Assembly: GCF_001425905.1 (NCBI RefSeq)
Contig: NZ_LMDY01000013.1
Span: 1,194 to 65,193 of the forward strand
Length of the DNA: 64,000 nucleotides
Reading direction: 5' to 3'
Origin: Methylibium sp. Root1272
GTDB lineage: Bacteria > Pseudomonadota > Gammaproteobacteria > Burkholderiales > Burkholderiaceae_C
Shown: piece by piece, positions 13,261-28,701 of the stretch
Layout of the letters: every line of letters begins with the position of its first letter
How positions within the stretch are numbered: the stretch's first letter is position 1
Notes under the pieces: model-generated
Told to the model about the DNA's origin: nothing
Seen by the model: the letters and a program-made list of their open reading frames with translations, nothing else
The model's database searches: none
Made by a program: the position numbers and the translations under genes

Positions 13261-14544
13261 TCAGGACAGCATCGACTCCGCCATCGCCTCGTCGGCCCGG
13301 GCCGGTACCGACCGGCGCGCCTCGATCTGCTCGGCCAGGTAGAGCGCGTCGCGCGCCACGCCGGAGAAGCGGCCCGAGCCCCAGGTGTGCAGCCAGGGCA
13401 GGCCGATGAAGTAGAGCCCCGGCAGCGCGGTCACGCCGCGCACGTGGCCGGGCTGCCCGCGGCCGTTGAACACCGGCGCGTCGAGCCAGCTGAAGTCGGG
13501 CGAGAAACCGATGCACCAGATGACGGCACCGATGCCGGACTCGCGCAGCGACAACCGCGTGCGCTCGGCCGCCGGCTCCCACACCGGCCGGTAGGCCGAC
13601 GGCGGCGGCGCGTCGAGGCCGGCCTTCTCGATGTGCTTGTCGATCGCGGCGTTGATGCCGTTGTAGATGCGGTCGGCGTGGTCGAGGTTGGCGCGCAGGT
13701 CGGGGTTGAAGTGCAGCGTGTCGCCCTCCAGGCCGTTCAGCAGCCCGTATAGCTCCATGCCCTCGCTGGCGAACTTGCGCAGATCGATGTCGCGCCCGCC
13801 GTCGCGGCCGGTGACGTAGTGGTTGGTGTTGTCGCGCACGCCCTCGCGCAGCGGGTGCTCGTGCACCGGCATGTCGTAGTAGCCCATGTCGGCCAGCCAG
13901 TCCACCACGTCCTTGCCGCGGTAGAAGCGCGCGCAGCGCGGCGCGTCGCCGGTCGCCATCACCACCTCGCGACCGGCCAGGTGCAGGTCCTCGGCGATCT
14001 GCGCGCCCGACTGGCCGTTACCCACCACCAGCACCTTGCCGGGCGGCAGCGCCTGCGCATTGCGGTACTGCTCGGAGTGGATCTGCAGCAGCTCGCGCGG
14101 CAGCCGCTCGGCCAGCCGCGGGATGATGGGCTGGTGGTAGCCGCCCGAGGCCACCACCACCTGGTCGGCGCTGTAGTGGCCCTGCGAGGTGGCGATCTCG
14201 AAACCGCCGCCGGCGCGCGGCGCGGCGCGCTGCACCGTCAGGCCGCTGCGCACCGGCGCGTCCACATGCTTCACGAAGCCGTCGAGGTACTCGATGATCT
14301 CGTCCTTCTTCATGAAGCCGTGCGGGTCGCTGCCGGCGTACTCCCAGCCTGGCAGCTTGCACTGCCAGTTGGGCGTGACGAGGCAGAAGCTGTCCCAGCG
14401 CTGCGTGCGCCAGGCGTGCAGCGGCGAGCGCTTCTCGAGCACGACGTGGTCGATGCCGCGCTGCTTCAGGTAGTAGCTCAGCGACAGGCCGGCCTGGCCG
14501 CCGCCGACGATGGCGACGCTGTGGTGTTCTGCGGTGGGGTTCAT
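13261..14544 (-). CDS. flavin-dependent oxidoreductase of the Nit1C cluster (MSMEG_0569 type)
   Basis: A 427-residue flavoprotein monooxygenase-like enzyme. GGGQAGL at residues 14-20 binds FAD, and a second nucleotide-binding motif VVGNGQSGAQIAEDL lies mid-protein. It belongs to the MSMEG_0569 family, found almost only in nitrilase Nit1C clusters, and is the last gene of the cluster here. Substrate unknown; by context it probably oxidises a product of the nitrilase/radical SAM steps. The start ATG has AAGGA upstream, 23 bases after the preceding small gene. Confidence 0.88.
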   Translation of the reverse strand: MNPTAEHHSVAIVGGGQAGLSLSYYLKQRGIDHVVLEKRSPLHAWRTQRWDSFCLVTPNWQCKLPGWEYAGSDPHGFMKKDEIIEYLDGFVKHVDAPVRSGLTVQRAAPRAGGGFEIATSQGHYSADQVVVASGGYHQPIIPRLAERLPRELLQIHSEQYRNAQALPPGKVLVVGNGQSGAQIAEDLHLAGREVVMATGDAPRCARFYRGKDVVDWLADMGYYDMPVHEHPLREGVRDNTNHYVTGRDGGRDIDLRKFASEGMELYGLLNGLEGDTLHFNPDLRANLDHADRIYNGINAAIDKHIEKAGLDAPPPSAYRPVWEPAAERTRLSLRESGIGAVIWCIGFSPDFSWLDAPVFNGRGQPGHVRGVTALPGLYFIGLPWLHTWGSGRFSGVARDALYLAEQIEARRSVPARADEAMAESMLS

Positions 14545-14567
14545 GGCGTGGGTCCTTCTTGCTCGGG

Positions 14568-14852
14568 TCAGGCTTCGTCGAAGCGCAGCACTTCCACCTC
14601 GGCCTGCGCGTCGAAGCGTTCGGCGGTGGCCTCGATCTGCGCCAGCTGGTCCATCGCCATCGAACAGGCGTAGCCGAACTTGGCACGCACGCGCTCGGAG
14701 GCGATGTGCAGCGCCTCGCGGCTGCGGGCCAGGAACTCCGGCAGCGGGTAGGCACTGCCGGGCACGAGGTAGTCCTTGATCACCAGCGACGGCGAGTAGC
14801 AGCGCGTCTCGCTGCGGTCGGGCCAGCGCAGGTGGAAATGCATCGCGGGCAT
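14568..14852 (-). CDS. small nitrogen-starvation-type protein (MSMEG_0570 family)
   Basis: A 94-residue cytoplasmic protein beginning MPAMHFHLRWPDRSETRCYS and rich in Ala/Glu in its C-terminal helix. The family (MSMEG_0570) has no known biochemical activity and is a marker of Nit1C clusters. The fold looks compact, without signal or membrane segments. It lies 26 bases after the glycosyltransferase and 23 before the flavoprotein, in the same transcription unit. Confidence 0.85.
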   Translation of the reverse strand: MPAMHFHLRWPDRSETRCYSPSLVIKDYLVPGSAYPLPEFLARSREALHIASERVRAKFGYACSMAMDQLAQIEATAERFDAQAEVEVLRFDEA

Positions 14853-14878: not shown

Positions 14879-16144
14879 TCAGGAAACGACAGGGGCGGCG
14901 TCCATCGCGGCCGGTTCGGTGGGCACCGCCGCGGCGAGCGGCAAGCCGTGGCCGACCAGCGCCCGCATCGCGCGGTACAGCGCGACGTGGCGCGCGGCGC
15001 TGGCCGTCCAGCTGTAGCGCCGGCAGACCTCGGGCACGGCCCGGGCCAACGCCTCGGCGCGCCCCGGTTCGCAGGACCGCGCCATCGCGTCGGCGATCGA
15101 CAGCGGGTTCAGCGGGTCGGCCCAGCAGGCCTCGCCGTGCTGCTCGTCGGCCGGCAGGTATTCGGTGAACGGCGCCTGGCGCGACACCACCACCGGCGTG
15201 CCGCAGGCCAGCGCCTCCAGCACCACCAGGCCGAAGCCTTCGCGCAGCGAGGCCATCACCAGCACGTCGGCGGCGCGGAACAGCGCCGGCATCTCGTCGT
15301 CGGCGACGGTGCCGGTGATCACCACGTCGGCCCCCGGCCCGACGCGCAGGCCGCTGGCGGCCAGCGCCTCGGTGAACTCTCGCGCGTAGCGGTCGTGGTC
15401 GAGCAGGCTGGCACCGCCGGCGATGACCAGCTGCGCCTGGGGTTGCCGCGCGCGCAGGGCCGCGAAGGCCTGCAGCACACGCACCGTGTTCTTGCGCTCT
15501 TCGATGCCGCCCACCGCCAGATAGACCGGCGCGCCGTGGGAGGCGCCGGCGCGCAGCCCGTAGCGGCGCCGGACGCGCGCATCGGCGGCGCCGGGCTGGC
15601 GGCCATAGCGCCGCAGGTCGACGCCGTTGTGCACCAGCGCCGCCGCGACGCCGTGCTCGCGCTGCAGGATGTCGCACCAGGTCTGGCTGACGCACAACAC
15701 CTGGCGCGCCTGCAGGAAGGCACGCTGCTGCCAGGCCATCACGCGCGCGTCGTCGAAGTGGTCGAGGTGGTGCACGGTGCGCACGAAGCCGTCGATCAGC
15801 CCGCGTTCCTGCAGCGTCGCCAGTGCATTGCCGCCGATGCCGTCCTGCGCATGCAGCACGTCGTAGCCGCGCGACGTCACCCGCGGCGCGAGATGGTCGA
15901 TGCAGGCGTCGCGGCGCGACGCGACCATGCTCGCCAGGTCGGCCGGCGCCGGCGCCACCGGCACCAGTTCGACCGCGCAGCGCGGCGTGCGGAACAGCGC
16001 CTGCCCGGGCAGCGCCGGCGCCATCACCGTCACCTCGTGGCCTGCCTCGTGCAAGGCATCGGCCAGTTCCAGCGTGTGGATGACGCCACCGCGCGGATGG
16101 ACCGAATGGGTCAGCAGGCCGATGCGCAGGCGACGGTTAGACAT
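14879..16144 (-). CDS. GT4-type glycosyltransferase of the Nit1C cluster (MSMEG_0565 type)
   Basis: A 421-residue GT-B fold retaining glycosyltransferase. The N-terminus RIGLLTHSVHPRGGVIHTLELADAL is the acceptor domain. The C-terminal EGFGLVVLEALACGTPVVVS is the nucleotide-sugar binding EX7E motif of GT4. Its presence argues that the cluster makes or modifies a small molecule rather than just hydrolysing a nitrile. The start overlaps the end of the AIR-synthase-like gene by eight bases. Confidence 0.88.
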   Translation of the reverse strand: MSNRRLRIGLLTHSVHPRGGVIHTLELADALHEAGHEVTVMAPALPGQALFRTPRCAVELVPVAPAPADLASMVASRRDACIDHLAPRVTSRGYDVLHAQDGIGGNALATLQERGLIDGFVRTVHHLDHFDDARVMAWQQRAFLQARQVLCVSQTWCDILQREHGVAAALVHNGVDLRRYGRQPGAADARVRRRYGLRAGASHGAPVYLAVGGIEERKNTVRVLQAFAALRARQPQAQLVIAGGASLLDHDRYAREFTEALAASGLRVGPGADVVITGTVADDEMPALFRAADVLVMASLREGFGLVVLEALACGTPVVVSRQAPFTEYLPADEQHGEACWADPLNPLSIADAMARSCEPGRAEALARAVPEVCRRYSWTASAARHVALYRAMRALVGHGLPLAAAVPTEPAAMDAAPVVS

Positions 16145-17165
16145 GGGCCGGCTCCCGCGGCCCGACGGCCCGCGCGCCGATGAAGGGCTGCGCCGTCAGG
16201 TCCCACAGCAGCGTGCTCGCCTCGCCGTCGCGCAGATGCAACTGCGGGTTCGCCGTGACCTCGCCGACCGCGGCGCAGGCGATGCCCTGCGACTCGAAAT
16301 GCCGCGCCACCGCGGCCGCCTGCGCCGGCCGCACGCTGAACACGAAGCCGAAGCTCGGAAAGGACTGCAGCCAGCGCAGCAGCGGCACGCCGGGCGGGCG
16401 CGGGATCGCCTGCACGTCGATCACGCCGCCGACCCGCGAGCACTCCAGCAGCATCAGCGCCGTGCCCACGGCGCCGGCCATGCTGATGTCCTTGGCCGCG
16501 TCGCACAGGCCGCTCTCGGCCAACGCCGGCAGCAGCTCGATGTCGGCGCGCAGCCGCTCGGCCGGCGCGCCGGTCGACGCGTCCCAGTAGGGGTTGGGCT
16601 CCTGGTAGGCGCCGCGCAGGTCGATCGCCATCACCAGGGTGTCGCCGGGGCGGGCGTTGAAGCTCGTCAGCAGCGTCTTCGCGCGGCCCAGGATCGCCAC
16701 GGCGAGCTGCCCGCCGGCCGCCTGGTTGTTGCTGTGCCCGCCGACGATCGGCACGCCGTAGCGCTGCGACGCGGCCGCCAGGCCCTCGAGCACCTGCCGG
16801 CCCGGCGCCATGCCGCGGCTCCACAGCGCGTCGACCACGGCGATCGGACGCCCGCCCATCGCACAGATGTCGCTCACGTTCACCATCACGCCGCAGTAGC
16901 CGGCGAACCAGGGCATGCGCTGCACGAAGTCGTCGACGAAGCCCTCGATCGCGAACAGCAGGTAGCCACCGTCGCCATCGGGGATCGCCGCGCAGTCGTC
17001 GCCGACGCCGACCGCCTGGCCCAGCGCCGCGGTGCCGCCGGGCAGCGCGGCCGACAGCGCGGACACCACGTCGCTGATGTCGCGCTTGTGCGCGAAGCCG
17101 CGCCCGCGCAGCAGCGCCGAGGCGAGCCCGTCGAGCCCGTCCTGGCCCCGCATTCCGTCGTCCAT
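16137..17165 (-). CDS. AIR synthase-like protein of the Nit1C cluster (Sll0787 type)
   Basis: A 342-residue PurM/ThiL/SelD superfamily ATP-binding protein. Motifs are VGVGDDCAAIPDG near the N-terminus, VNVSDICAMGGRPI and IVGGHSNNQAAGGQLAVAILG, which fit the Mg-ATP site of this fold. These enzymes phosphorylate or activate oxygen or nitrogen atoms with ATP; the substrate here is unknown. It is always found with the nitrilase and radical SAM genes of Nit1C clusters. It begins 13 bases after the acyltransferase stop and overlaps the glycosyltransferase start. Confidence 0.88.
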   Translation of the reverse strand: MDDGMRGQDGLDGLASALLRGRGFAHKRDISDVVSALSAALPGGTAALGQAVGVGDDCAAIPDGDGGYLLFAIEGFVDDFVQRMPWFAGYCGVMVNVSDICAMGGRPIAVVDALWSRGMAPGRQVLEGLAAASQRYGVPIVGGHSNNQAAGGQLAVAILGRAKTLLTSFNARPGDTLVMAIDLRGAYQEPNPYWDASTGAPAERLRADIELLPALAESGLCDAAKDISMAGAVGTALMLLECSRVGGVIDVQAIPRPPGVPLLRWLQSFPSFGFVFSVRPAQAAAVARHFESQGIACAAVGEVTANPQLHLRDGEASTLLWDLTAQPFIGARAVGPREPAHV

Positions 17166-17178
17166 GCCGGCGTCCTCG

Positions 17179-17751
17179 TCAGGCGCGGGCCCGGCTCTGC
17201 GCCACGTAGCCGGTCAGCGGATCGTGGCAGGGCGGGTACTGCGCCAGGTCGGCCTGCATCAGGCAGTGCGGGCGGCCGTGCAGCGCCTCGTCCTTCAGCC
17301 AATGCCAGTGCAGCTTCTCGAACAGCGCGCGGTTCTGCGCCTGCACGTGCGCCAGGAAAAGCCGCGCGCCACGCGCGTGCGCGCTGCTCACCGCCAGCCG
17401 GATCAGCGTCGCACCGAGCCGGCCGTGGCTGCGGAAGGCCGGGTGCACCGCGAGGCGCGAGCCCCACCACACGCCGTCGTCGCCCTCGTTCAGGCCGGGG
17501 TGGATGCGCACGGTGCCGACCACCTGGTCGCTCATGCCGCCCACGCAGGACAGCGCCACCAGCGGCTGCGCATGCGCATCGATCGCGTCGATGTCATCGC
17601 CGCCGCCGAACAGGCCCTGCTCGATGCAGAACACCAGGCGGCGCAGGCGCCGCGCCTCGTTGATCTCCCAGGCGCCGTCGGCCCACTTGACGCGGAACTC
17701 GCAGGGGGTGAAGGCCAGCGGCAGGTCGCACACCACGTCCAGGGTCAGCAT
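17179..17751 (-). CDS. GNAT N-acyltransferase of the Nit1C cluster (MSMEG_0567/Sll0786 type)
   Basis: A 190-residue GNAT acetyltransferase-like protein. The core is VGTVRIHPGLNEGDDGVWWG and LAVHPAFRSHGRLGATLIRL, with the acetyl-CoA loop as R-x-x-G-R-L-G. It probably acylates an amine made in the pathway. The ATG at 17751 is preferred over an in-frame GTG four codons upstream because GGAGG sits at good distance. It is separated from the radical SAM stop by 127 bases that hold a repeat. Confidence 0.85.
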   Translation of the reverse strand: MLTLDVVCDLPLAFTPCEFRVKWADGAWEINEARRLRRLVFCIEQGLFGGGDDIDAIDAHAQPLVALSCVGGMSDQVVGTVRIHPGLNEGDDGVWWGSRLAVHPAFRSHGRLGATLIRLAVSSAHARGARLFLAHVQAQNRALFEKLHWHWLKDEALHGRPHCLMQADLAQYPPCHDPLTGYVAQSRARA

Positions 17752-17769
17752 GACCACCTCCACTCACAA

Positions 17770-17878: not shown

Positions 17879-19015
17879 TCATGATTCGTACACGGAGAGA
17901 GACGAGCACGCCCCGCACTTGCCGCAACCCGCCTTGATGTCGCTCGAGCGCAGGCGCCCGGCGCTGACCATCGCGCCCAGCGGCTCCAGCACCGACTTCA
18001 TGAACTCGGGGCTCGGCGCCGGGTGGTCCTCGAGCGGCGTGCCGCTGATCGGCACGAAGGGCACGACGAAGGGGTAGACACCCAGCGCCACCAGCTTCTC
18101 GGCGATCGAGAGGATGGCCTCGCGCGTGTCGCCCAGGCCGGCCAGGATGTAGGTCGACACCTGGCCGCGGCCGAACACGCCGACCGCCGCCTCGAAGCTC
18201 TCCAGGTAGCGCTCGACCGGCACCGTGGCCTTGCCCGGCATGATGCGTTCGCGCAGCTCGGGCGTCACCACCTCGAGGTGCATGCCCAGCGTGTCGATGC
18301 CGGCGGCCTTCATGCGCACGAACCACTGGTCGGTGTCCGGCGGCTCGCACTGCGCCTGGATCGGCAGGTCGACCGCCGCACGGATCGCGAAAGCGCTGTC
18401 GCACAGCACCTGCGCGCCGCGGTCGGGCGTGGGCGGGGTGCCGGTGGTCATGACCATGTGCTTCACGCCGTCGAGCAGCACCGCGGCGCGCGCCACCTCG
18501 GCGAGCTGCTCGGGCGTCTTGTGCGCCACCGTGCGGCCGGCCGCGAGGCTCTGGCCGATCGCGCAGAACTTGCAGGTCTTGCGGCGGCTCTCGTAGCGGA
18601 TGCAAGTCTGCAGCACCGTGGTGGCCAGCACGTCCGAGCCGTGCAACGTGGCGATGTGCGGATAGGGCACGCCGTCGAAGGTCTGCAGCGCATAGAAGCG
18701 CGGCGCCTTCGGGAAGGCGATGCGCGCGATCGGGATGCTGCCGCGCGTCAGCCGGCTCGTGCCACTGGCGTCGGGCGCCTCGGCGACGAACGGGGAAGCC
18801 CAGGCGCCCTGGGTGTGCACCGGCACCATGATCGTGTGGCCATCGACCATGACCGCCTTGTGGTCCGACGGCCCCGCGCCGCCGCGACGGCTGGCCACGC
18901 CGGCATTCGGCGAGCCCGGATCAGCCAGCCGCAACCCGAAGGACTGCAGCTCGGTCATCAACTGGCGGCTCTCCGGCGACAAGGTCGGTGCGGGGCCGAG
19001 GGTCGTGGTGCTCAT
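17879..19015 (-). CDS. radical SAM protein of the Nit1C cluster (MSMEG_0568 type)
   Basis: A 378-residue radical SAM enzyme. The [4Fe-4S] cysteines are Cys138, Cys148 and Cys151, that is C-x9-C-x2-C rather than the canonical C-x3-C-x2-C. This spacing is characteristic of the MSMEG_0568 family as I recall it. A C-terminal Cys triad (364, 367, 370 in GCGKCGAC) may hold an auxiliary cluster. The reaction is unknown. The first 95 bases overlap the 3' end of the nitrilase gene in another frame. The product probably acts on the nitrilase product or a precursor. Confidence 0.88.
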
Positions 19016-19997
19016 GGGCGGAACTCCGGAGGGCCGCGGTAACGGCGGGAATAGCGGGGGTGGCCGGCATCGGCATCGAGGTCGTGGCCGGACGGTCGTT
19101 GATCAGCAGGCTCAGCAGCTCGGGGCGCGCGTAGTGGCCCACCGAATCCATCATGCGTTTGCGCTTGGCGATCAGCGCCATGTCGAGGTCGGCATAGACG
19201 AGGCCCTCGCCCTCGGTCAGCGGGGTGCACAGGTCCTTGCCCTCGGGCGAGACGATCGCGGTGTGGCAGCCGCCGCGCAGTGCCTTCTGCAGGCCCGGGT
19301 CGGGCGTGATGGACGCGATCTGCGCGTCGGTCAGCCAGCCGGTGGCGTTGACGACGAAGCAGCCCGACTCCAGCGCGTGGTGGCGGATCGTCACCGCCAT
19401 CTGGTCGGCGAAGATCTGCCCGACCATCGAGCCGGGGAACTGGGCGCAGTGGATCTCCTCGTGCTGTGTCATCAGCGCGTAGCGCGCCAGCGGGTTGTAG
19501 TGCTCCCAGCAGGCCAGCGCACCGATGCGGCCGACCGCGCTGTCGACCACCTTCAGGCCGGCGCCGTCGCCCTGGCCCCAGACCATGCGCTCGTGGTAGG
19601 TCGGGGTGATCTTGCGGCGCTTCAGGATCAGCGCGCCGTCGGCATCGAACACCAGCTGGGTGTTGTAGAGGCTGCCGTGGTCGAGCTCGTTGACGCCGAG
19701 CACGACGACGATGCCGCGTGCGCGGGCCCGCTCGGCGACCGCCTGCGTGACCGGGCCGGGCACCACCACCGCGTGCTCCATCAGCCGCAGGTGCGGCGCA
19801 CCCTGCAGCACCGGCGGCAGCACGAACGAGAAGTAGGGGTAGTAGGGGACGAAGGTCTCGGGGAACACCACCAGCTGCGCCCCCTGCGCGGCCGCCTCGT
19901 CGACGGCCGCGAGCACGCGCTCGAGCGTGCCCGCGGGCCGCTCGAGGTCGGGCGCGATCTGGACCGCGGCAGCGCGGACGGTGCGAGGGGAACTCAT
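18921..19997 (-). CDS. nitC: nitrilase of the Nit1C cluster (Nit6803/NitC type)
   Basis: Hydrolyses a nitrile to the acid and ammonia. NitC of Pseudomonas fluorescens NCIMB 11764 is required for growth on cyanide, and Synechocystis Nit6803 is a close family relative. The catalytic triad is visible: Glu47 (FPETF), Lys129 ([11 protein letters not shown]) and Cys163 ([10 protein letters not shown]). The 358-residue frame is longer than needed for the fold. Its last 31 or so residues, from about [10 protein letters not shown], are encoded inside the start of the radical SAM gene and are probably a disordered tail. The ATG at 19997 is followed by [15 protein letters not shown], the normal start. 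Confidence 0.92.
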
Positions 19998-20138: not shown

Positions 20139-20621
20139 TCAAAGTGTCCAGGTGTCCAGGATGAAGGCGTTGGACTTGCGGTGCAGCAGGATGATGTCCA
20201 GCACGTCCAGCGGGCTGATCGGGCGGATGCCTTCGATCAGCGCGCCTTCGCCATGGCCGTACAGCGCCTGCAGCGCGAAGCGGCAGGCGTAGACCTTGCC
20301 GCCCTCGCTCATGAACTTGGCGATCTGGTTGTTGAAGTTCTGGTGGCCGGGGAAGGCCTCGTCGCCGAGCGTCGGGAAGCCGCGCTTGACGCCCAGCGTG
20401 ACGCCCGGGCCGTAGAGCAGCACCGAGGTCTCGAAGCCCTTGCGCTGCAGGCGCGTGGCCTGCAGCAGGTTGACGAAGCCGATCGACCCTTCGAAGGCGA
20501 CGGTGTGGAAGGTGACGAGCGCCTTCTCGCCGGGCTCGGCCTTCACGTCCTCGAAGACCTTCTCTTCGTAATCGACGAGGAACTCGCCTTTCTCGTTGGC
20601 GGGGCGGGTGACTTTGGGCAT
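20139..20621 (-). CDS. nitrogen starvation response protein of the Nit1C cluster (MSMEG_0572/Sll0783 type)
   Basis: First gene of the Nit1C operon: a 160-residue cytoplasmic protein beginning [20 protein letters not shown], with a DsrE/F-like hydrophobic core ([44 protein letters not shown]). The family's Synechocystis member Sll0783 responds to nitrogen starvation; its chemistry is unknown. The ATG at 20621 has a usable upstream AACGGAG-like site. The promoter candidate at 20699-20714 would give a leader of about 70 bases. Confidence 0.9.
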
Positions 20622-20698: not shown

Positions 20699-20714
20699 TG
20701 CACGCGGTGTGCCA
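20699..20714 (-). promoter_or_regulatory. candidate sigma-54 (-24/-12) promoter of the Nit1C operon
   Basis: On the minus strand the bases from 20714 to 20699 read TGGCACACCGCGTGCA. The invariant GG and GC are separated by exactly ten bases, as in TGGCACG-N4-TTGCA, with one mismatch in each element. It lies 78 bases ahead of the first ATG of the operon. RpoN control fits a nitrogen-scavenging cluster; Pseudomonas Nit1C clusters carry a sigma-54 activator, NitA. No enhancer-binding protein gene is in the window. Confidence 0.6.
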
Positions 20715-20740: not shown

Positions 20741-20968
20741 ATGCGATCAAGTTGCGATCAAAGCGCAGGCATGCGGCCGCCGTTGCCGGCAACTTTTTTG
20801 CGACCCCGCCCGACGGTGGCGATGCCCCTTATCTGCTCCAGGGCATGCGCACCGGCGTGAGGCGGCGCGATGCGATCAATGCCTCCGATCAACGGGGCTC
20901 GGCGCACCGCCGCTGGGCGCCATCGGCGGTGCCGTGCGCCCCGGTGATGGCATGAACGATGCAATCAA
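20741..20968 (+). promoter_or_regulatory. five direct repeats of a GCGATCAA-type motif (candidate MocR operators)
   Basis: The shared control region carries ATGCGATCAA at 20741-20750, TTGCGATCAA at 20752-20761, ATGCGATCAA at 20870-20879, CTCCGATCAA at 20883-20892 and ATGCAATCAA at 20959-20968, all in one orientation. The first two lie 11 bases apart, the middle two 13. MocR/GabR regulators bind direct repeats, and the divergent gene at 21046 encodes one. The rest of 20622-21045 (424 bases) shows no gene. Confidence 0.6.
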
Positions 20969-21045: not shown

Positions 21046-22443
21046 ATGGCCACCGCCAAACCCATGCAGCACTGGCTGCGCCGACTCGAGGGCAGCGACC
21101 GGCCCGCCTACCTGCTGATCGCCGACCTGATCGCCGAGGATTTGCGAACCGGCCGGCTCGGCGCGCAGGAGCGCCTGCCGACGCTGCGCCAGCTGGCCGA
21201 CAGCCTGCGGCTCAACTACACGACGGTGGCGCGCGCCTACGGCGAGGCGCGCAAGCGCGGGCTGATCGACTCGCGCCCCGGCATGGGCACCTACGTGCGC
21301 GGCCGCAGCCCGGCCGTGCCGCTGCGCGGCGGCAGCGGCGCGGAGATGACGATGAACCTGCCGCCCGAACCGGAGGACACGGCGCTGGTCGAGCGCCTGC
21401 GCGAGAGCGCCCGCGACCTGATGGCCCGCACCGACCTGTACGCGCTGATGCGCTACCAGGACTTCGGCGGCGCGCCCGAGGACAAGGACGCCGCGGTCCA
21501 GTGGCTGCGCCACCGTCTGCCGGACTGCAGCGCCGAGCGCGTGCTGGTCTGCCCCGGCATCCACAGCGCGCTGGCCGCGCTGGTGTCGCAGCTGGCACGG
21601 CCCGGCGAGCTGGTGTGCGTGGAGTCGCTCACCTACCCGGGCATCAAGGCGATCGCCACCCAGCTCGGTGTGCAGCTGCACGCGCTGGCGCTCGACGACG
21701 AGGGTCCGAGCGCGGCCGATTTCGAACAGGCCTGCAAGACCCTCAAGCCCAAGGCGCTGTACTGCAACCCGACGCTGCTGAACCCGACCACGTTGACGAC
21801 CTCGAAGCGACGGCGCGAGGCGCTGGCCGACATCGCGCTGCGCTACAGCGTGCCGATCATCGAGGACGACGCCTACTCGATGCTGCCGCGCGAGGTACCG
21901 CCGCCGCTGGCGCTGCTGGCGCCGGAGCTCACCTACTACGTCACCGGTTTCAGCAAGTGCCTCGGCGCGGGCCTGCGCACCGCCTACGTCAGCGCGCCCA
22001 GCGAGCGCCAGGCGCAGCGGCTGGCCGGCGCACTGCGGGCCACCACGGTGATGGCGTCGCCGGTGACCAATGCGCTGGCCACCCGCTGGGTCGTCGACGG
22101 CAGCGCGCAGGCGATGCTGCAGGCGATCCGCAACGAGTCGATCGCCAGGCAGGCGATGGCGGCCCGCCACCTGGCGCGCCACGCGGTGCAGGCGCAGCCG
22201 GAAGGCTTCCACCTCTGGCTGCCGCTGTCGTCGTCGTGGAGCACGGTGGAGTTCGCGTCCTACCTGCGCACCCAGGGCGTCGGCGTGGTGGCCAGCGCCG
22301 CGTTCTCGACCGACGGGGACCCGCCGGACGCGGTGCGCATCTGCCTCGGCGGCCCACTGACGCGCGACGACTGCGACGCCGCGCTGCGGCTGATCGCCGA
22401 CACCCTGGACCATCCGCTGCATCCGCATGCCACCGTGATGTAG
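21046..22443 (+). CDS. MocR/PdxR-type transcriptional regulator (GntR HTH plus aminotransferase domain)
   Basis: A 465-residue regulator. Residues 15-85 form a GntR winged helix-turn-helix (GRLGAQERLPTLRQLADSLR, TVARAYGEARKRGLI). The rest is a fold-type I PLP aminotransferase domain, with Asp274 (EDDAY) and PLP-lysine Lys304 (TGFSKCLGAGLR) intact. It is divergent from the Nit1C operon and probably controls it in response to an amino compound or PLP adduct. ATG at 21046 fits the family start; an upstream in-frame start would add a Pro-rich segment without homology. Confidence 0.88.
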   Translation: MATAKPMQHWLRRLEGSDRPAYLLIADLIAEDLRTGRLGAQERLPTLRQLADSLRLNYTTVARAYGEARKRGLIDSRPGMGTYVRGRSPAVPLRGGSGAEMTMNLPPEPEDTALVERLRESARDLMARTDLYALMRYQDFGGAPEDKDAAVQWLRHRLPDCSAERVLVCPGIHSALAALVSQLARPGELVCVESLTYPGIKAIATQLGVQLHALALDDEGPSAADFEQACKTLKPKALYCNPTLLNPTTLTTSKRRREALADIALRYSVPIIEDDAYSMLPREVPPPLALLAPELTYYVTGFSKCLGAGLRTAYVSAPSERQAQRLAGALRATTVMASPVTNALATRWVVDGSAQAMLQAIRNESIARQAMAARHLARHAVQAQPEGFHLWLPLSSSWSTVEFASYLRTQGVGVVASAAFSTDGDPPDAVRICLGGPLTRDDCDAALRLIADTLDHPLHPHATVM

Positions 22444-23446: not shown

Positions 23447-23917
23447 ATGACACCGAACCCGACGACCCCCAAGCGGCCCGCACGCCGTCGCGGCCGCACC
23501 GATGTCGCACGGCGCGCGCTGCTGCTCGCGGCATGCGCCGCCGCGCTGGCCCTGCCGGCGATCGCGCGCGCGCAGGCGCAGCAGCCCGCCGCGCCGAAGG
23601 TCGACCTCGAGACAGCGCGCGCCGCCGCGGCCGCGGGCCAGGCCTTGCTGATCGACATCCGCGAGCCCGACGAGCACGCGGCGACCGGCGTCGCGCCGGG
23701 CGCGCTGCGCCTGCCGCTGAGCCAGATCAAGGAGCGCCAGTCGGAGATCCCGCGCGACCCGGCCCGGCCGGTGCTGCTGATCTGCCGCACGCAGAACCGC
23801 TCCAGCAAGCTGGCCACGATGCTGCAGGCGCAGGGCTATACCAACGTGCGCTATGTGGACGGCGGCATGAAGGAGTGGACCGAGCGCCACTTCCCGACCG
23901 AGATGCCGCCCCGCTGA
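23447..23917 (+). CDS. exported rhodanese-domain sulfurtransferase
   Basis: Single-domain rhodanese of 156 residues with an N-terminal signal sequence (Arg-rich then LLLAACAAALALPAIARAQA, cleavage near residue 43). A Tat-like RR precedes the hydrophobic stretch, though the consensus is poor. The rhodanese domain runs from residue 52 to 150, with catalytic Cys113 in the loop CRTQNRS. Rhodaneses can convert cyanide to thiocyanate using thiosulfate. Located between a nitrilase cluster and cyanase, a cyanide-related role is attractive but inferred. AGGAG lies upstream of the ATG. Confidence 0.88.
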   Translation: MTPNPTTPKRPARRRGRTDVARRALLLAACAAALALPAIARAQAQQPAAPKVDLETARAAAAAGQALLIDIREPDEHAATGVAPGALRLPLSQIKERQSEIPRDPARPVLLICRTQNRSSKLATMLQAQGYTNVRYVDGGMKEWTERHFPTEMPPR

Positions 23918-24438: not shown

Positions 24439-24882
24439 TCAGTAGGTTTTATAGGGCAGGAACTTGCCGCTCATCGTGATGCTGACCCGGTCGCCGGCGG
24501 GGTGGGGCTCGCGCTGCAGGTCCATCTTGAAGTCGATCGCGCTCATGATGCCGTCGCCGAACTCCTCGTGGATCAGCTCCTTGAAGGTCGTGCCGTACAC
24601 ATTGACGAGTTCGTAGAAGCGGTAGATCAGCGGATCGCTCGGCACAGTGGTCGGCAGCGAGCCCTTGTAGGGCACCACCATCAGCCACTTCTGCTCGGCG
24701 TCGCTGAGGCCGAAGATCTCGCCGACGATGCCGGCCTGCTCCTTCGTCAGCGTCATCTGGCCGAGGCAGGCGGCCGTCGTCCATTCCTTGCTGAGGCCGA
24801 CCTTGGCGGCGATATCGGACCACTTCAGGCCCTTGGCCACCTTGGTGGCGACGATCTTTTCGGTGACTTCGAGACGGCTCAT
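24439..24882 (-). CDS. cynS: cyanate hydratase (cyanase)
   Basis: Decomposes cyanate with bicarbonate to ammonia and two CO2 through carbamate. The 147-residue protein has all catalytic residues: Arg88 and Glu91 ([11 protein letters not shown]) and Ser114 (GIMSAIDF), matching Arg96, Glu99 and Ser122 of the E. coli enzyme. The N-terminal helical domain ([15 protein letters not shown]) is also typical. It lies 71 bases after the ABC ATPase gene in an apparent operon with the transporter. No carbonic anhydrase (cynT) is adjacent, unlike in E. coli. Confidence 0.96.
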
Positions 24883-24953
24883 GGCGTGCTCCGGTGGGGT
24901 GGGACAGAGGGAGGGGTGATCGAGGGCGTGCGTGGACGAGTGGATGACATCGC

Positions 24954-25880
24954 TCACACCACTCGCTGCAGCGGCACTCGGTTCGGCGAGGCCACGCCGG
25001 TGACCAGCGCGGCGGGTTCGGTATCGGCCTCCGGCGAGGCATCGACGCCCGGATGCACCTCGGGCGGAAACGCCGGCGCACGACCGTGCGCCAGGTCCTT
25101 CGAGCGCGCGACGAGGAAGTCGACCAGGTGGTTGCGGATACGGTAGTACTGCGGGTCGTGGTGCAACGTGGCGCGCTGGCGGTCGCGCGGCATGGTGTTG
25201 CGCACGATCTCCGCCACGCGCGCCTGCGGGCCGTTGCTCATCAGCAGGATCCTGTCGGCCAGCAGGATGGCCTCGTCGACGTCGTGCGTGATCATGAAGA
25301 CGGTCTGGTGCGTCTCGGCGCAGATCTTCAGCAGTTCGTCCTGGATGCTGCCGCGCGTCAGCGCGTCGAGCGCACCGAAGGGTTCGTCGAGCAGCAGCAT
25401 CTTGGGCTCGATCGCGAAGGCGCGCGCGATGCCCACGCGCTGCTTCATGCCGCCCGACAGCGCCGCCGGCTTCTTGTCGATGGCGTGCCCCAGGCCGACC
25501 ATCGTCACGTACTTCTCGACCTGTGCGTCGACCTGGGGTGCGGTCCAGTCGGGCCACTTGCTGCGCACCGCGAAGGCAATGTTGCGGCGCACGCTGAGCC
25601 AGGGCATCAGCGCATGGCCCTGGAACACCACGCCACGCTCCAGGCTCGGTCCGGCGACCTCGCGGCCGTCCATGAACACATGGCCGGCGCTGGCCTGCTC
25701 CAGGCCTGCGAGCACGTTGAGGATGGTGGTCTTGCCGCAGCCGCTGTGGCCGATGATGCAGACGAACTCACCCTTCGCAATGCCGAAATTCACGCCGTCG
25801 AACACCGGTTCGGTGGACCCGGGGTAGGTCTTGGCCAGGCCCTCGATCTTGAGGAAGGGGGTGGGTGAGTTCATGGGCAT
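24954..25880 (-). CDS. cyanate/nitrate-type ABC transporter, ATP-binding protein
   Basis: A 308-residue ATPase of the NrtD/SsuB/TauB group. Walker A is GHSGCGKTT near residues 44-52, the Q-loop is in VVFQGHALMPWL, the signature is LSGGMKQRVGIARA, Walker B is MLLLDEPFGALD, and the H-loop is ITHDVDEA. A C-terminal tail of about 50 residues after the core is Pro/Ala-rich. Placement beside cynS favours cyanate as substrate, though nitrate or bicarbonate cannot be excluded. The start is ATG at 25880, or 25874 two codons later; no strong ribosome binding site was seen. Confidence 0.9.
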   Translation of the reverse strand: MPMNSPTPFLKIEGLAKTYPGSTEPVFDGVNFGIAKGEFVCIIGHSGCGKTTILNVLAGLEQASAGHVFMDGREVAGPSLERGVVFQGHALMPWLSVRRNIAFAVRSKWPDWTAPQVDAQVEKYVTMVGLGHAIDKKPAALSGGMKQRVGIARAFAIEPKMLLLDEPFGALDALTRGSIQDELLKICAETHQTVFMITHDVDEAILLADRILLMSNGPQARVAEIVRNTMPRDRQRATLHHDPQYYRIRNHLVDFLVARSKDLAHGRAPAFPPEVHPGVDASPEADTEPAALVTGVASPNRVPLQRVV

Positions 25881-25920
25881 GGGCCGGTCTTGCGCATCTG
25901 GCTTGCTTGCACCGAGCACG

Positions 25921-26270
25921 CAAGGGTGAGGCTGAGGCCGCGGTCGCTTCGCTGGGGTACCAGAGGCGCGCCCGCGGCCTCAGCCTCACCCTTGCCAGAC
26001 GCACCGTGCGTTGCAGTGGTCGAATCCCTCGGCTGCATCCAGGCCCGAGGGCGGTGGCCTGCGCGGGCGCCTCTGCGCCGGCGAGCAGCGCAGTGCAGCG
26101 AGGGGCAGTCCGCCGCCGGGCGGCGGACCGGCGAGAAGGCTCTATGCCGTGCCGCGTCCAGCGGCGCGGCGGAGTCATCGCAGCCGCCCTCGCGGAGCGA
26201 GCAGCGCAGCGAACCTTCGCCGGCAGGCGAAGGCGGCGCAGTGAAGCTCGCGCAGGCCACCGCCCTCGGG
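25921..26270 (+). repeat. nested fold-back element inside the cyanate transporter operon
   Basis: The 426-base gap between the permease and ATPase genes holds two perfect inverted repeats. A 23-bp pair starting CAAGGGTGAGGCTGAGGCCG (25921-25943) matches 25972-25994. A 22-bp pair starting CCCGAGGGCGGTGGCCTGCG (26044-26065) matches 26249-26270. Inside the second lie smaller hairpins such as GTCCGCCG / CGGCGGAC and TTCGCC / GGCGAA. No convincing gene is present on either strand. The strand given is nominal. Confidence 0.75.
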
Positions 26271-26306
26271 CCGCACGCCGAAGCGGCCCGCGAACAACGA
26301 AGGAGG

Positions 26307-27191
26307 TCAATCCACATACGTCACCGCCTTCTGCGCCCGCGCGAACAGCAGATCCAGCAGCATGCCGACCACGCCGATCACCAGGATCGCGAAGATCACG
26401 TTGGTGAGCGACAGATTGTTCCACTCGTTCCACACGAAGTAGCCGATGCCGGTGCCGCCCACCAGCATCTCGGCGGCCACGATCACCAGCCAGGCGATGC
26501 CCATGCTGATGCGCATGCCCGTCAGGATGGTGGGCGCCGCGGCCGGGAGGATCACCTCGAAGGCCTTGCGCAGCGGGCTCACCTCCAGCGTCTTGGCCAC
26601 GTTGAGCCATTCGCGCCGTACGCCGGCCACGCCGAAGGCGGTGTTGATCAGCATCGGCCAGACCGAGCAGATGAAGATCACGAAGATGCCGCTGATCGAC
26701 GAGTCCTTGATCGTGTAGAGCGCCAGCGGCATCCAGGCCAGCGGCGAGATCGGCTTGAGCACCTGGATGAAGGGATCGAGCGCGCGATAGACCAGCGGGC
26801 TCATGCCGATCAGGAAGCCCAGCGGGATCGCGACCAGCGCCGCCAGCGCGAAGCCCAGCCCCACGCGACCCAGCGAATAGGCGAGCTGCAGGCCGATGCC
26901 CTTGTCGTTCGGGCCGTTGTCATAGAACGGATGCGACAGGTGCTCGACCACCTTGCTGCCCAGCTGGGCCGGCGTCGGGAAACCCGAGCGACCGGCGGTC
27001 GAGCCGGCCTTGGCGCCCGGGTCCTTGCCCAGCAGGCGGGCGTACTCGATCTGCTCGGCCGTCATCGCTGCGGCCGGCGCCTTGCTGCCCGCCGCCGGCC
27101 GCGTGGCGAGCTGCCACACGATCAGCAGCAGCGCGAGGATCAGCGCGGACAGCAGGCCGGCGCGCAGGTTGAGCGAACGAGCTCCGTTCAT
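26307..27191 (-). CDS. cyanate/nitrate-type ABC transporter, permease
   Basis: A 294-residue binding-protein-dependent permease of the NrtB/TauC group. It has an N-terminal membrane anchor (residues 11-30), a periplasmic stretch, then five further membrane segments. The EAA-like cytoplasmic loop VAKTLEVSPLRKAFEVILPA couples to the ATPase. It begins 15 bases after the binding-protein stop, in the order binding protein, permease, ATPase. The final segment ends LFARAQKAVTYVD. Confidence 0.92.
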   Translation of the reverse strand: MNGARSLNLRAGLLSALILALLLIVWQLATRPAAGSKAPAAAMTAEQIEYARLLGKDPGAKAGSTAGRSGFPTPAQLGSKVVEHLSHPFYDNGPNDKGIGLQLAYSLGRVGLGFALAALVAIPLGFLIGMSPLVYRALDPFIQVLKPISPLAWMPLALYTIKDSSISGIFVIFICSVWPMLINTAFGVAGVRREWLNVAKTLEVSPLRKAFEVILPAAAPTILTGMRISMGIAWLVIVAAEMLVGGTGIGYFVWNEWNNLSLTNVIFAILVIGVVGMLLDLLFARAQKAVTYVD

Positions 27192-27206
27192 GGCCGTCCG
27201 GTCCGC

Positions 27207-28601
27207 TCAGGTGCGCTTGATCGCGAAGCTGCCGATGTAGGGCTCGGGCTGCTCGGGGTCGAACACCTTGCCCATGATGGTGAACTTCGGGTACGCGCCG
27301 TCGGGCACCTTCTGGTCGAGCTGCTTCATCGTCTTCCTGGCGTCGGTCAGCAGGAACACCTTCTCGGCGATCTGCCTGTAGTTCACGTCGCCCTTCACGT
27401 AACCCCAGCGCTTCATCTGCGTGAGCATCCACACCGCCATGCTCTGCCAGGGGATGGGGTCGAAGTCGGCGCGGTCGGGCACGTTCCTCACGTTGCCCAG
27501 GCCGTCGGCGAACTTGCCGGTCAGCACTTGCGTCACCACCGTCTCGGGCTGGTTCAGGTAGGCCTGCGGAGAGATCACCTTGGCGATCAGCTCGCGGTTC
27601 TCGGGCTTGCGCGCCATCGCCGCGGCGGTGAGCACCGCGCGGTACAGCGCCGCGAAGGTGTTGGGGTTCTGCTGGATGAACTCGGTGCTGGTGCCGAAGG
27701 CGCAGCAGGGGTGGCCGTTCCACAGCTCCTTGGTCAGCAGGTGCAGGAAGCCCACCTCCTCGAACACCGCACGCTGGTTGAAGGGGTCCGGGCCGAGGTA
27801 GCCGTCGATGTTGCCGGCGCGCAGGTTGGCCACCATCTCCGGCGGCGGCACCACGCGGATCTGGATGTCGCGGTCCGGGTCCAGCCCGGCCTCTGCCACG
27901 TAGTAGCGCAGCAGGAAGTTGTGCATCGAGTACTCGAACGGCACCGCGAACTTGAAGCCCTTCCACTGCTTCGGGTCGCGCTTGTCCTTGTGCTTGTTCG
28001 CCAGCGTGATGGCCTGGCCGTTGGTGTTCTGGATCGTCGCCACGTTCATCGGCGTGGCGTTGGAGCCCACGCCCATGCTGATGGCCAGCGGCATCGGGCT
28101 CAGGAAGTGCGTGGCGTCGTACTCCTTGTTGAGCATCTTGTCGCGGATCAGCGCCCAGCCGGCCGTCTTGACCACCTGCACGTTGAGGCCCTGCTTCGAA
28201 TAGAAGCCCAGCGGGTGGGCCATGATCAGCGGTGTGGCGCAGGTGATCGGGATGAAGCCGATCTTCAGGTCCTTCTTCTCCGGCGCGCCGGCCGCCTGGG
28301 CCAGGGCCTGCAGCGGCGCGATCGGCAGCACGCTGGCGATCGCCGCCATGGCCGTACCCTTGCCCACGGCGCGCAGGAAGCGGCGCCGCACCGCGTCCTG
28401 CGGGAACAGCGCCTTCACCAGCGTGGCCTCGACGAAGGCATTCGAGTAGGCCTCGAATTCGGCCGTCTCGCTGCGACGGCGCAGCTCGGCGCCGGCATCC
28501 TCGGCCGCGTGCTCGGCGGCAGATCCGTGGCGGCCGCAACTGCACCGCATCAGCAGCGGCCGGTCGGCGTCGTACGGGTCGATATCGCGCGCGTCACTCA
28601 T
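27207..28601 (-). CDS. cyanate/nitrate-type ABC transporter, substrate-binding protein
   Basis: A 464-residue NrtA/CmpA-family binding protein. A Tat-type signal (RRRFLRAVGKG at residues 72-82, then AAIASVLPIAPLQALAQA) lies unusually far from the ATG. It is preceded by about 70 residues with a Cys pair and Gly/His (MRCSCGRHGS, Cys20 and Cys22). The mature domain starts at KKDLKIGFIPITCATPLIMA. It is first gene of the operon running to cynS. GTG/ATG alternatives closer to the Tat motif were not found, so the long N-terminus appears genuine. Confidence 0.9.
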   Translation of the reverse strand: MSDARDIDPYDADRPLLMRCSCGRHGSAAEHAAEDAGAELRRRSETAEFEAYSNAFVEATLVKALFPQDAVRRRFLRAVGKGTAMAAIASVLPIAPLQALAQAAGAPEKKDLKIGFIPITCATPLIMAHPLGFYSKQGLNVQVVKTAGWALIRDKMLNKEYDATHFLSPMPLAISMGVGSNATPMNVATIQNTNGQAITLANKHKDKRDPKQWKGFKFAVPFEYSMHNFLLRYYVAEAGLDPDRDIQIRVVPPPEMVANLRAGNIDGYLGPDPFNQRAVFEEVGFLHLLTKELWNGHPCCAFGTSTEFIQQNPNTFAALYRAVLTAAAMARKPENRELIAKVISPQAYLNQPETVVTQVLTGKFADGLGNVRNVPDRADFDPIPWQSMAVWMLTQMKRWGYVKGDVNYRQIAEKVFLLTDARKTMKQLDQKVPDGAYPKFTIMGKVFDPEQPEPYIGSFAIKRT

Positions 28602-28683
28602 CAGGGCACCCCTTGCGTTGTGGCTCGGAACCGATGCTAGGGACGCCGCGCGCCGCGCGCGATCGTGCGCGGCGGGGATGTTT

Positions 28684-28701
28684 TGTAGGGGTGGCACTAC
28701 A
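28684..28701. promoter_or_regulatory. dyad upstream of the cyanate operon (candidate operator)
   Basis: TGTAG-N8-CTACA lies in the 135-base gap upstream of the binding-protein gene and downstream of the protease gene. The 5-bp arms are perfect. A possible -10, TAGCAT, lies at 28638-28633 on the minus strand, 35 bases before the ATG. A LysR-type or similar regulator would fit, but none is encoded next to the operon. Confidence 0.35.

Follow-up and report, generated by a model that had tools for sequence, protein, structure and literature searches.

Helically phased repeats suggest that a MocR-type regulator may shape a proposed NtrC loop at the sigma-54 promoter of a Nit1C operon

The Nit1C operon in the window (the whole 64-kb stretch of DNA analysed here) is preceded by a real -24/-12 sigma-54 promoter element, and the direct repeats upstream of this element look as though they sit on fixed faces of the helix across many bacteria. 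From these comparisons we consider it probable that NtrC activates the promoter, and that the divergently encoded MocR-type protein serves as a ligand-gated architectural modulator inside the NtrC loop. The original prediction concerned the promoter element and its possible activators. Operator repeats, NtrC boxes and phasing were absent from it, and the helical phasing is what is new here.

Sigma-54 promoter element and gene neighbourhood

Leftward from 20621 runs a Nit1C cluster that encodes eight proteins, each scoring above the cut-off of its curated family (Table 1). The divergent regulator contains a GFSKCLGAGLR stretch, which we take to be the PLP-binding lysine site of MocR proteins. 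Its top NCBIfam match is EhuR, the ectoine MocR, and this identity was rejected because the score of 402 bits falls below the curated cut-off of 480. About 2 kb past mocR, a cyanase and a nitrate-type ABC transporter (by context a cyanate transporter) occupy 24442-28697 on the minus strand; cyanide- and cyanate-related nitrogen assimilation genes adjoin in the window. Between mocR and this cyanase operon lies a gene for a rhodanese-like protein with an apparent signal sequence (23447-23917, plus strand). A promoter design common to the nit and cyanate operons was rejected, as no convincing -24/-12 element was found upstream of the latter.

Table 1. Features of the nit locus, in window coordinates
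Feature	Position	Strand	Remark
-24/-12 sigma-54 promoter element TGGCACACCGCGTGCA	20699..20714	-	conserved position upstream of nitB
nitB, MSMEG_0572/Sll0783 family	20139..20621	-	TIGR04044, 285 bits
nitC, Nit6803-family nitrilase	18921..19997	-	TIGR04048, 582 bits; start chosen by reading
MSMEG_0568-family radical SAM protein	17879..19015	-	TIGR04043
MSMEG_0567/Sll0786-family N-acetyltransferase	17179..17763	-	TIGR04045
sll0787-family AIR synthase-like protein	16137..17165	-	TIGR04049
MSMEG_0565-family glycosyltransferase	14879..16144	-	TIGR04047
MSMEG_0570-family protein	14568..14852	-	TIGR04042
MSMEG_0569-family flavin-dependent oxidoreductase	13261..14562	-	TIGR04046
Divergent MocR-type regulator (GntR-type and aminotransferase-like domains)	21046..22443	+	NCBIfam
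Proximal candidate MocR-type operator TTGATCGCA-AC-TTGATCGCA, 11-nt step	20742..20761	-	about -73 to -54
A-tract AAAAAA in presumed loop	20794..20799	-	counted across loci
NtrC-box-like site CGCCTCACGCCGGTGCG	20848..20864	-	about -176 to -160; left half degenerate
Distal candidate MocR-type pair TTGATCGGAGGCA-TTGATCGCA, 13-nt step	20871..20892	-	about -204 to -183
Second, weaker NtrC-box-like site CGCCCAGCGGCGGTGCG	20903..20919	-	about -231 to -215; score 8.7
Single half-site TTGATTGCA near mocR start	20960..20968	-	putative autoregulation

The exact GG-N10-GC match predicted before the operon is present at its place on the minus strand. TGGCACACCGCGTGCA begins with T at 20714 and ends with A at 20699, and exactly 10 bases separate GG (20713-20712) from GC (20701-20700). 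It differs at two weakly conserved positions from TGGCACG-N4-TTGCA, which we take to be the consensus. The end of the element is separated by 77 bases from the nitB ATG (20621), and the usual offset from a -24/-12 element would place the transcription start at about 20688. When both strands of the window were scored against the consensus, TGGCACACCGCGTGCA was one of 2 sites reaching 6.0 or more; the other was TGGCACACGGCTTGCG at 35994-35979 (minus strand). A plain consensus scan allowing 3 mismatches gave 235 matches in the window against a chance mean of 334, that is, fewer, and the window sequence by itself is thus weak evidence for the element.

A chance match is ruled out by conservation across Nit1C loci. 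A site scoring at least 5.0 within 130 nt of nitB was found in 87 of 108 loci. For the same 108 loci the opposite strand gave a count of 2, the complement 0 and shuffled sequences a mean of 0.5. A looser cut of 4 raised the count to 89, hereafter the sigma-54 loci. The schemes used for sigma-54 and NtrC sites were built from assumed consensus sequences, and the controls were scored with the identical scheme. RpoN is encoded once in the genome (443 bits), and the Nit1C operon is expected to have a sigma-54-dependent promoter, rpoN dependence and the start site being predictions from the sequence.

The 108 loci comprised 80 from GTDB (the best 80 of at least 456 confirmed relatives), 14 from the order (NitB in 15 of 399 genomes, own genome included), 3 from the class (369 genomes, of which 6 had NitB, counting the own genome; two weak matches dropped), 10 plasmid stretches (out of 515 plasmid records with NitB) and the window. 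Rows L010 (the own locus again) and L108 and L109 (27-30% identity) were dropped. This sample follows similarity to the window's NitB and contains no Pseudomonas locus. Non-redundant sets were made by a simple shared-word rule; L016/L084 and L082/L161, identical or nearly so, are collapsed in the set of 66 loci used below. The 19 loci scored as lacking a sigma-54 site were nine from cyanobacteria, two from Methylobacter, one from Rhodococcus, one from Acidisoma (L088), five alphaproteobacterial plasmid loci and L014, whose element at 133 nt lies past the 130-nt limit, with a repeat-to-element spacing of 37 by eye.

MocR-type regulators, TTGATYGCA repeats and their helical spacing

Of the 108 loci, 93 proved to have a relative of the window's MocR, encoded away from nitB in seven of the 93. 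Among the 89 sigma-54 loci, it was encoded beside nitB in 79 (in L024 in the same direction) and elsewhere in the genome in 7. None was found in the remaining 3, by a search of the whole genome for L107 and of the fetched stretch alone for L094 and L156. A sigma-54 activator is the neighbour in two of these 3, L094 and L156 (the latter on an Acinetobacter plasmid); as NitA-type controls, the two amount to one clear case (L156) and one locus with a neighbouring enhancer-binding protein (L094). Judged from this sample, which follows NitB similarity, the MocR arrangement is widespread and no quirk of this genome.

TTGATYGCA is likely the MocR operator. Of the 89 sigma-54 loci, 74 carry a TTGATYGCA-N2-TTGATYGCA pair (18 positions, at most 3 mismatched) a short way upstream of the -24 element, and every one of these 74 has a MocR relative, with 43-85% identity to that of the window. 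The regulator is encoded beside nitB in 68 and elsewhere in the genome in 6 (L020, L026, L030, L031, L032, L035), and the link between MocR and the repeats is therefore not based on adjacency alone. Repeats were found in none of the three sigma-54 loci for which the search for MocR was negative (L094, L107, L156). Twelve of the 86 sigma-54 loci with a MocR relative have no canonical proximal pair, and some of the twelve carry a variant repeat with a 12-nt step. MocR identity in these loci (47-53%) overlaps that in five pair-bearing loci (43-52%), and it gives no clean split between loci with and without the canonical pair. In the 4.2-Mb genome the exact pair is unique and one further copy has 3 mismatches; a broad MocR regulon in this genome is unsupported by these counts. 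The window locus has what defines a MocR-regulated divergon, namely an adjacent divergent regulator of GntR/aminotransferase type and direct repeats that co-occur with it. The half-site TTGATTGCA suggests possible autoregulation of mocR.

Some loci depart from this gene order. In L026, L030, L031, L032 and L035 (four of them Methyloversatilis), mocR lies about 8 kb from nitB, past the end of the operon, if the contigs correspond, and the nitB promoter retains the repeats despite the distant mocR. Nit1C is common on Klebsiella plasmids, which account for 374 of the 515 plasmid records with NitB, and in one K. oxytoca plasmid locus MocR is accompanied by a sigma-54 site and by a pair of repeats carrying 2 mismatches. 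Five alphaproteobacterial plasmid loci (L154, L155, L157, L158, L159) have MocR by tblastn and no sigma-54 element near nitB. In four of them the annotation places a PLP-dependent aminotransferase family protein next to nitB, and several carry ATTGTATGCA-like repeats close to the start, some 440 bp upstream of nitB. In these plasmid loci the promoter with which MocR works seems to be of a different type. MocR thus has no general need of sigma-54, and its partnership with sigma-54 was either gained or lost.

Proximal spacing is counted from the first base of the proximal pair down to the -24 T, with the best match per locus taken in a scan of 20-130 bp. The 74 loci gave 36 bp (29 loci), 37 (35), 46 (2), 47 (3), 48 (4) and 49 (1), with 47 bp in the window. 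A second candidate with at most 3 mismatches occurred at 25 or 126 bp in 4 of the 74, and in L013 it scored equal to the best. A distal pair with a 13-nt step (at most 2 mismatches, scan of 60-199 bp) is present in 37 of the 74 loci. Its spacing from the proximal pair is 100-102 bp (3 loci), 111-113 (6), 120-121 (2), 130-132 (22), 141-142 (2) or 164-165 (2), clusters that lie about one helical turn apart. For 33 non-redundant loci the Rayleigh R reached 0.82 near 10.25 bp (0.81 at 10.5 bp), and 0 of 5000 random draws, uniform over 95-170 bp, came as high; the distinct distal values alone gave an R of 0.78, reached by 2 of 5000 draws. When the distal scan was widened to 40-259 bp, another 13-step pair scoring at least as well turned up in 9 of the 37 loci, closer to mocR, at 219, 230-231 or 241 bp. 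Spacing class changed at least 6 times (proximal) and at least 9 times (distal) on a MocR tree of 74 rows, which was made with FastTree and has some weak branches, the distal classes having been labelled after the clusters were seen. The spacings differ by whole helical turns; if they are read correctly, evolution would in effect have carried out a natural insertion experiment.

NtrC-box-like sites and the likely activator

Sigma-54 RNA polymerase requires an ATP-driven enhancer-binding protein, and MocR is unable to supply that function. Opening of the promoter by MocR alone was rejected on known biochemistry and on the absence of any AAA+ family among the 25 of 44 matches listed for it. A Sigma54_activat profile search found no enhancer-binding protein encoded in the 64-kb window. 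The sole match inside the window (22.9 bits, at about 50614) reads as a MoxR/RavA-type ATPase, and the idea of a hidden enhancer-binding protein was rejected on this reading. The claim that no sigma-54 activator lies near the operon is thus borne out, and the adjacent NitA that marks NitA-type clusters is missing at the window locus. The genome encodes 17 strong Sigma54_activat proteins, and NtrC is encoded elsewhere in it, above the curated cut-off and, by reading, downstream of glnA and ntrB. It had been proposed that either NtrC acts from elsewhere and MocR modulates, or that the partnership is an unusual one. The former is the better supported alternative, with ntrC in the genome and NtrC-box-like sites in most MocR-type loci examined, and NtrC is most likely the activator. 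The original prediction had also regarded the missing local activator as unusual. This part did not hold, since the MocR arrangement is the common one among the fetched loci. Its statement that Pseudomonas Nit1C clusters use the sigma-54 activator NitA agrees with the available parts of the literature, in which the nitABCDEFGH clusters usually come with a divergently encoded sigma-54-dependent regulator (PMC11049912, PMC5333837).

The window's two NtrC-like boxes lie about 150 and 205 bp upstream; they are degenerate and weak (scores 9.1 and 8.7) and would not stand out alone. Sites were scored with tolerance against TGCACY-N5-GGTGCA, which we take to be the NtrC box consensus. Box-like sites 70-330 bp upstream of the element are found in 58 of the 66 non-redundant loci, compared to 5 of 66 in the complement and a mean of 13.2 after shuffling; when MocR half-sites were masked, 55 of 66 remained against 4 of 66 in the control. 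When 33 loci were aligned, most had GGTGC at either of two adjacent distances from the distal pair, and several other loci have a box at the place matching CGCCCAGCGGCGGTGCG. In three loci of Burkholderiaceae type (L092, L098, L099) a pair of boxes is spaced by 33 bp, and in two of the three one box is a near-perfect palindrome. Distances from the boxes to the -24 element cluster near 129, 139, 150, 161, 172, 183, 194, 205 and 216 bp, and the best site per locus gave an R of 0.69 at 10.75 bp, with 0 of 3000 draws as high.

As a positive control, the glnK-amtB promoter of the genome has GGCACCGCAGGAGTGCC upstream of a sigma-54-like site, TGGCACAGAACCTGCT; the glnA promoter has GGTGCG elements and no clear palindrome. 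Genome-wide, TGCAYY-N5-GGTGCR with at most 1 mismatch matches 294 places versus 71 for the reversed control, which makes the pattern too loose to single out targets. Since ntrC is in the genome and boxes stand upstream of the promoter across relatives, we predict that the nit promoter belongs to the NtrC regulon and is induced by nitrogen limitation.

An A-tract also lies in the presumed loop of the window (Table 1). A or A-T runs within 85 bp above the proximal pair occur in 32 of the 66 non-redundant loci, in 25 of these 32 at 66-77 bp above the -24 element, compared to a shuffle mean of 3.9 and to 18 of 66 in nitB coding sequence. In 44 loops with a G+C of at least 0.55, the numbers were 15 versus 7 in nitB coding sequence. 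The A-tract may act as an intrinsic bend, which we regard as a lead, not a result.

Proposed mechanism, its rivals and its meaning

From what is seen in the sequence, namely the conserved sigma-54 element, the association of MocR with the repeats, the phased spacings, the enrichment of NtrC boxes and the presence of rpoN and ntrC, we infer a mechanism in which the binding of NtrC and MocR to their sites, the looping, the ligand and the sign of the MocR effect are all conjectural. Sigma-54 RNA polymerase would transcribe the operon from the element at 20714-20699. NtrC, active in nitrogen starvation, would bind the boxes about 150 and 205 bp upstream and contact the polymerase by DNA looping. 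MocR would bind two sets of direct TTGATYGCA repeats, one directly upstream of the -24 element and the other beside the NtrC boxes, and would thereby be placed within or at the ends of the NtrC loop. Binding of a ligand by MocR, which we guess to be perhaps a nitrile- or cyanide-derived amino compound, would alter the probability or geometry of looping, and the operon would respond to nitrogen starvation and substrate together. We lean slightly toward co-activation by MocR, because the proximal site is clear of the promoter core and the described MocR divergons are mostly positively regulated. A more specific version, which we offer tentatively and would sooner doubt than rely on, is that MocR forms head-to-tail dimers that link the distal repeats with the proximal ones into a ligand-gated loop presenting NtrC to the sigma-54 polymerase. 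MocR would then be a dedicated, helix-phased co-regulator of a sigma-54 enhancer, conserved in many betaproteobacteria, in some gammaproteobacteria and perhaps, through a variant operator, in some alphaproteobacteria.

The strongest rival, to which we give somewhat less than an even chance, is that MocR is a plain repressor or quencher that blocks or hinders the NtrC-activated sigma-54 promoter until ligand releases it. Only one nitrilase-linked MocR with genetic tests was found; it comes from P. pseudoalcaligenes and acts on a different cluster, the cio/nit4 genes, as their putative repressor (PMC8567248, available in part). Moreover, the effect on expression of proteins bound inside a sigma-54 loop is reported to depend on how they are arranged, and some arrangements between an NtrC-type enhancer and its promoter can quench it (PMC4740811, in part). 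However, the gap between the proximal pair and the -24 GG amounts to 28 bases in the window and to 17-18 bases in loci of the commonest class, which makes simple occlusion of the core unlikely. The targets of MocR divergons are described as positively regulated in the accessible part of PMC5320631. Quenching inside the loop would still be architectural, and the repressor differs from our reading mainly in sign.

The other rivals question the proteins assigned to the sites, or the meaning of the spacings. It seems unlikely that an enhancer-binding protein other than NtrC drives the promoter and owns the GGTGCR elements. Another of the 17 strong enhancer-binding proteins in the genome could act, and the degenerate boxes of the window speak against NtrC, but the better boxes fit GCACY-N5-GGTGC, presumably the NtrC consensus, and look like that of the glnK promoter in this genome. 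That one box type recurs across loci also suits a widespread regulator such as NtrC, although a sigma-54-interacting regulator adjoins in the Acinetobacter plasmid locus and Pseudomonas clusters use NitA (PMC11049912, in part). We think it improbable that the repeats are bound by a factor other than MocR and that the neighbourhood is coincidental. Characterised MocR direct repeats step by two to three turns (PMC5320631, in part), more than the 11 and 13 nt seen here, but MocR relatives are present in 74 of 74 repeat loci, including 6 where they are not adjacent, none of the 3 sigma-54 loci without a MocR found carries the repeats, and the exact pair occurs once in 4.2 Mb. That the phased spacings are merely inherited sequence devoid of function is very hard to credit. 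The loci are related, and the modal classes of 36-37 and 130-132 bp dominate; however, 66 of the 74 loci were left after collapsing similar upstream regions, and the repeated changes of spacing class on the MocR tree (at least 6 proximal, at least 9 distal) land near whole turns.

NtrC activation modulated by MocR would have a parallel in astC, where ArgR is an auxiliary metabolite-responsive regulator at an NtrC/sigma-54 promoter. Both would combine a global nitrogen activator with a local regulator at a sigma-54 promoter, but ArgR is unrelated to the MocR of the nit locus. The NitA-type clusters of Pseudomonas have the same kinds of structural genes as the window, as far as the available parts of PMC11049912 and PMC5333837 go; in those clusters the neighbour is itself a sigma-54 activator, whereas here it is a MocR. 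The Acinetobacter plasmid locus, as a NitA-type example, has the -24/-12 element and lacks the TTGATYGCA pairs.

Phased looping has been described for other sigma-54 enhancers, in the part of PMC4740811 available. These are predicted to tolerate indels of 10-11 bp and not of 5-6 bp, 61 Vibrio qrr enhancers fit this tolerance, and natural qrr enhancers have loop lengths that differ by about 11 bp. Loop lengths thus step by about one helical turn in the Vibrio qrr/LuxO and synthetic enhancers, as the site spacings do at nit promoters. No second regulator's sites are identified in the qrr loops (same source), whereas the presumed nit loops contain operator-like sites of a candidate second regulator. 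As for MocR, its divergons are characterised by positively regulated targets, autorepression and direct-repeat operators (PMC5320631, in part). The GabR, TauR, PdxR and EutR divergons share the divergent gene order and the direct-repeat operators with the nit locus, but their repeats step two or three turns, compared to about one at nit, where a sigma-54 promoter is the target. The main text of this MocR survey does not contain the string 'nitril'. The available portions of PMC5491218, on the NtrC regulon of a Burkholderia, and those of PMC9249168, PMC1199592 and PMC6627978, contain nothing on a MocR at a sigma-54 nit promoter. Nor did the literature on MocR with sigma54, RpoN, NtrC or nitrilase, seen in part and including few subscription papers, contain such a case, and none was found that pairs nit1C with NtrC, again with few subscription papers covered. 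A prior description elsewhere is possible.

We know of no MocR protein that acts at a sigma-54 promoter. If our reading is right, the nit promoters would hold a natural, widely conserved metabolite sensor built into a sigma-54 loop. They would provide a test case for the integration of two signals on one DNA loop, in which the tuning of enhancer looping by a second regulator is directly testable. The candidate operator named here may be used to seek the MocR ligand. For Nit1C, and with it the assimilation of cyanide and nitrile nitrogen, this would provide a concrete model of two-signal control in bacteria without NitA.
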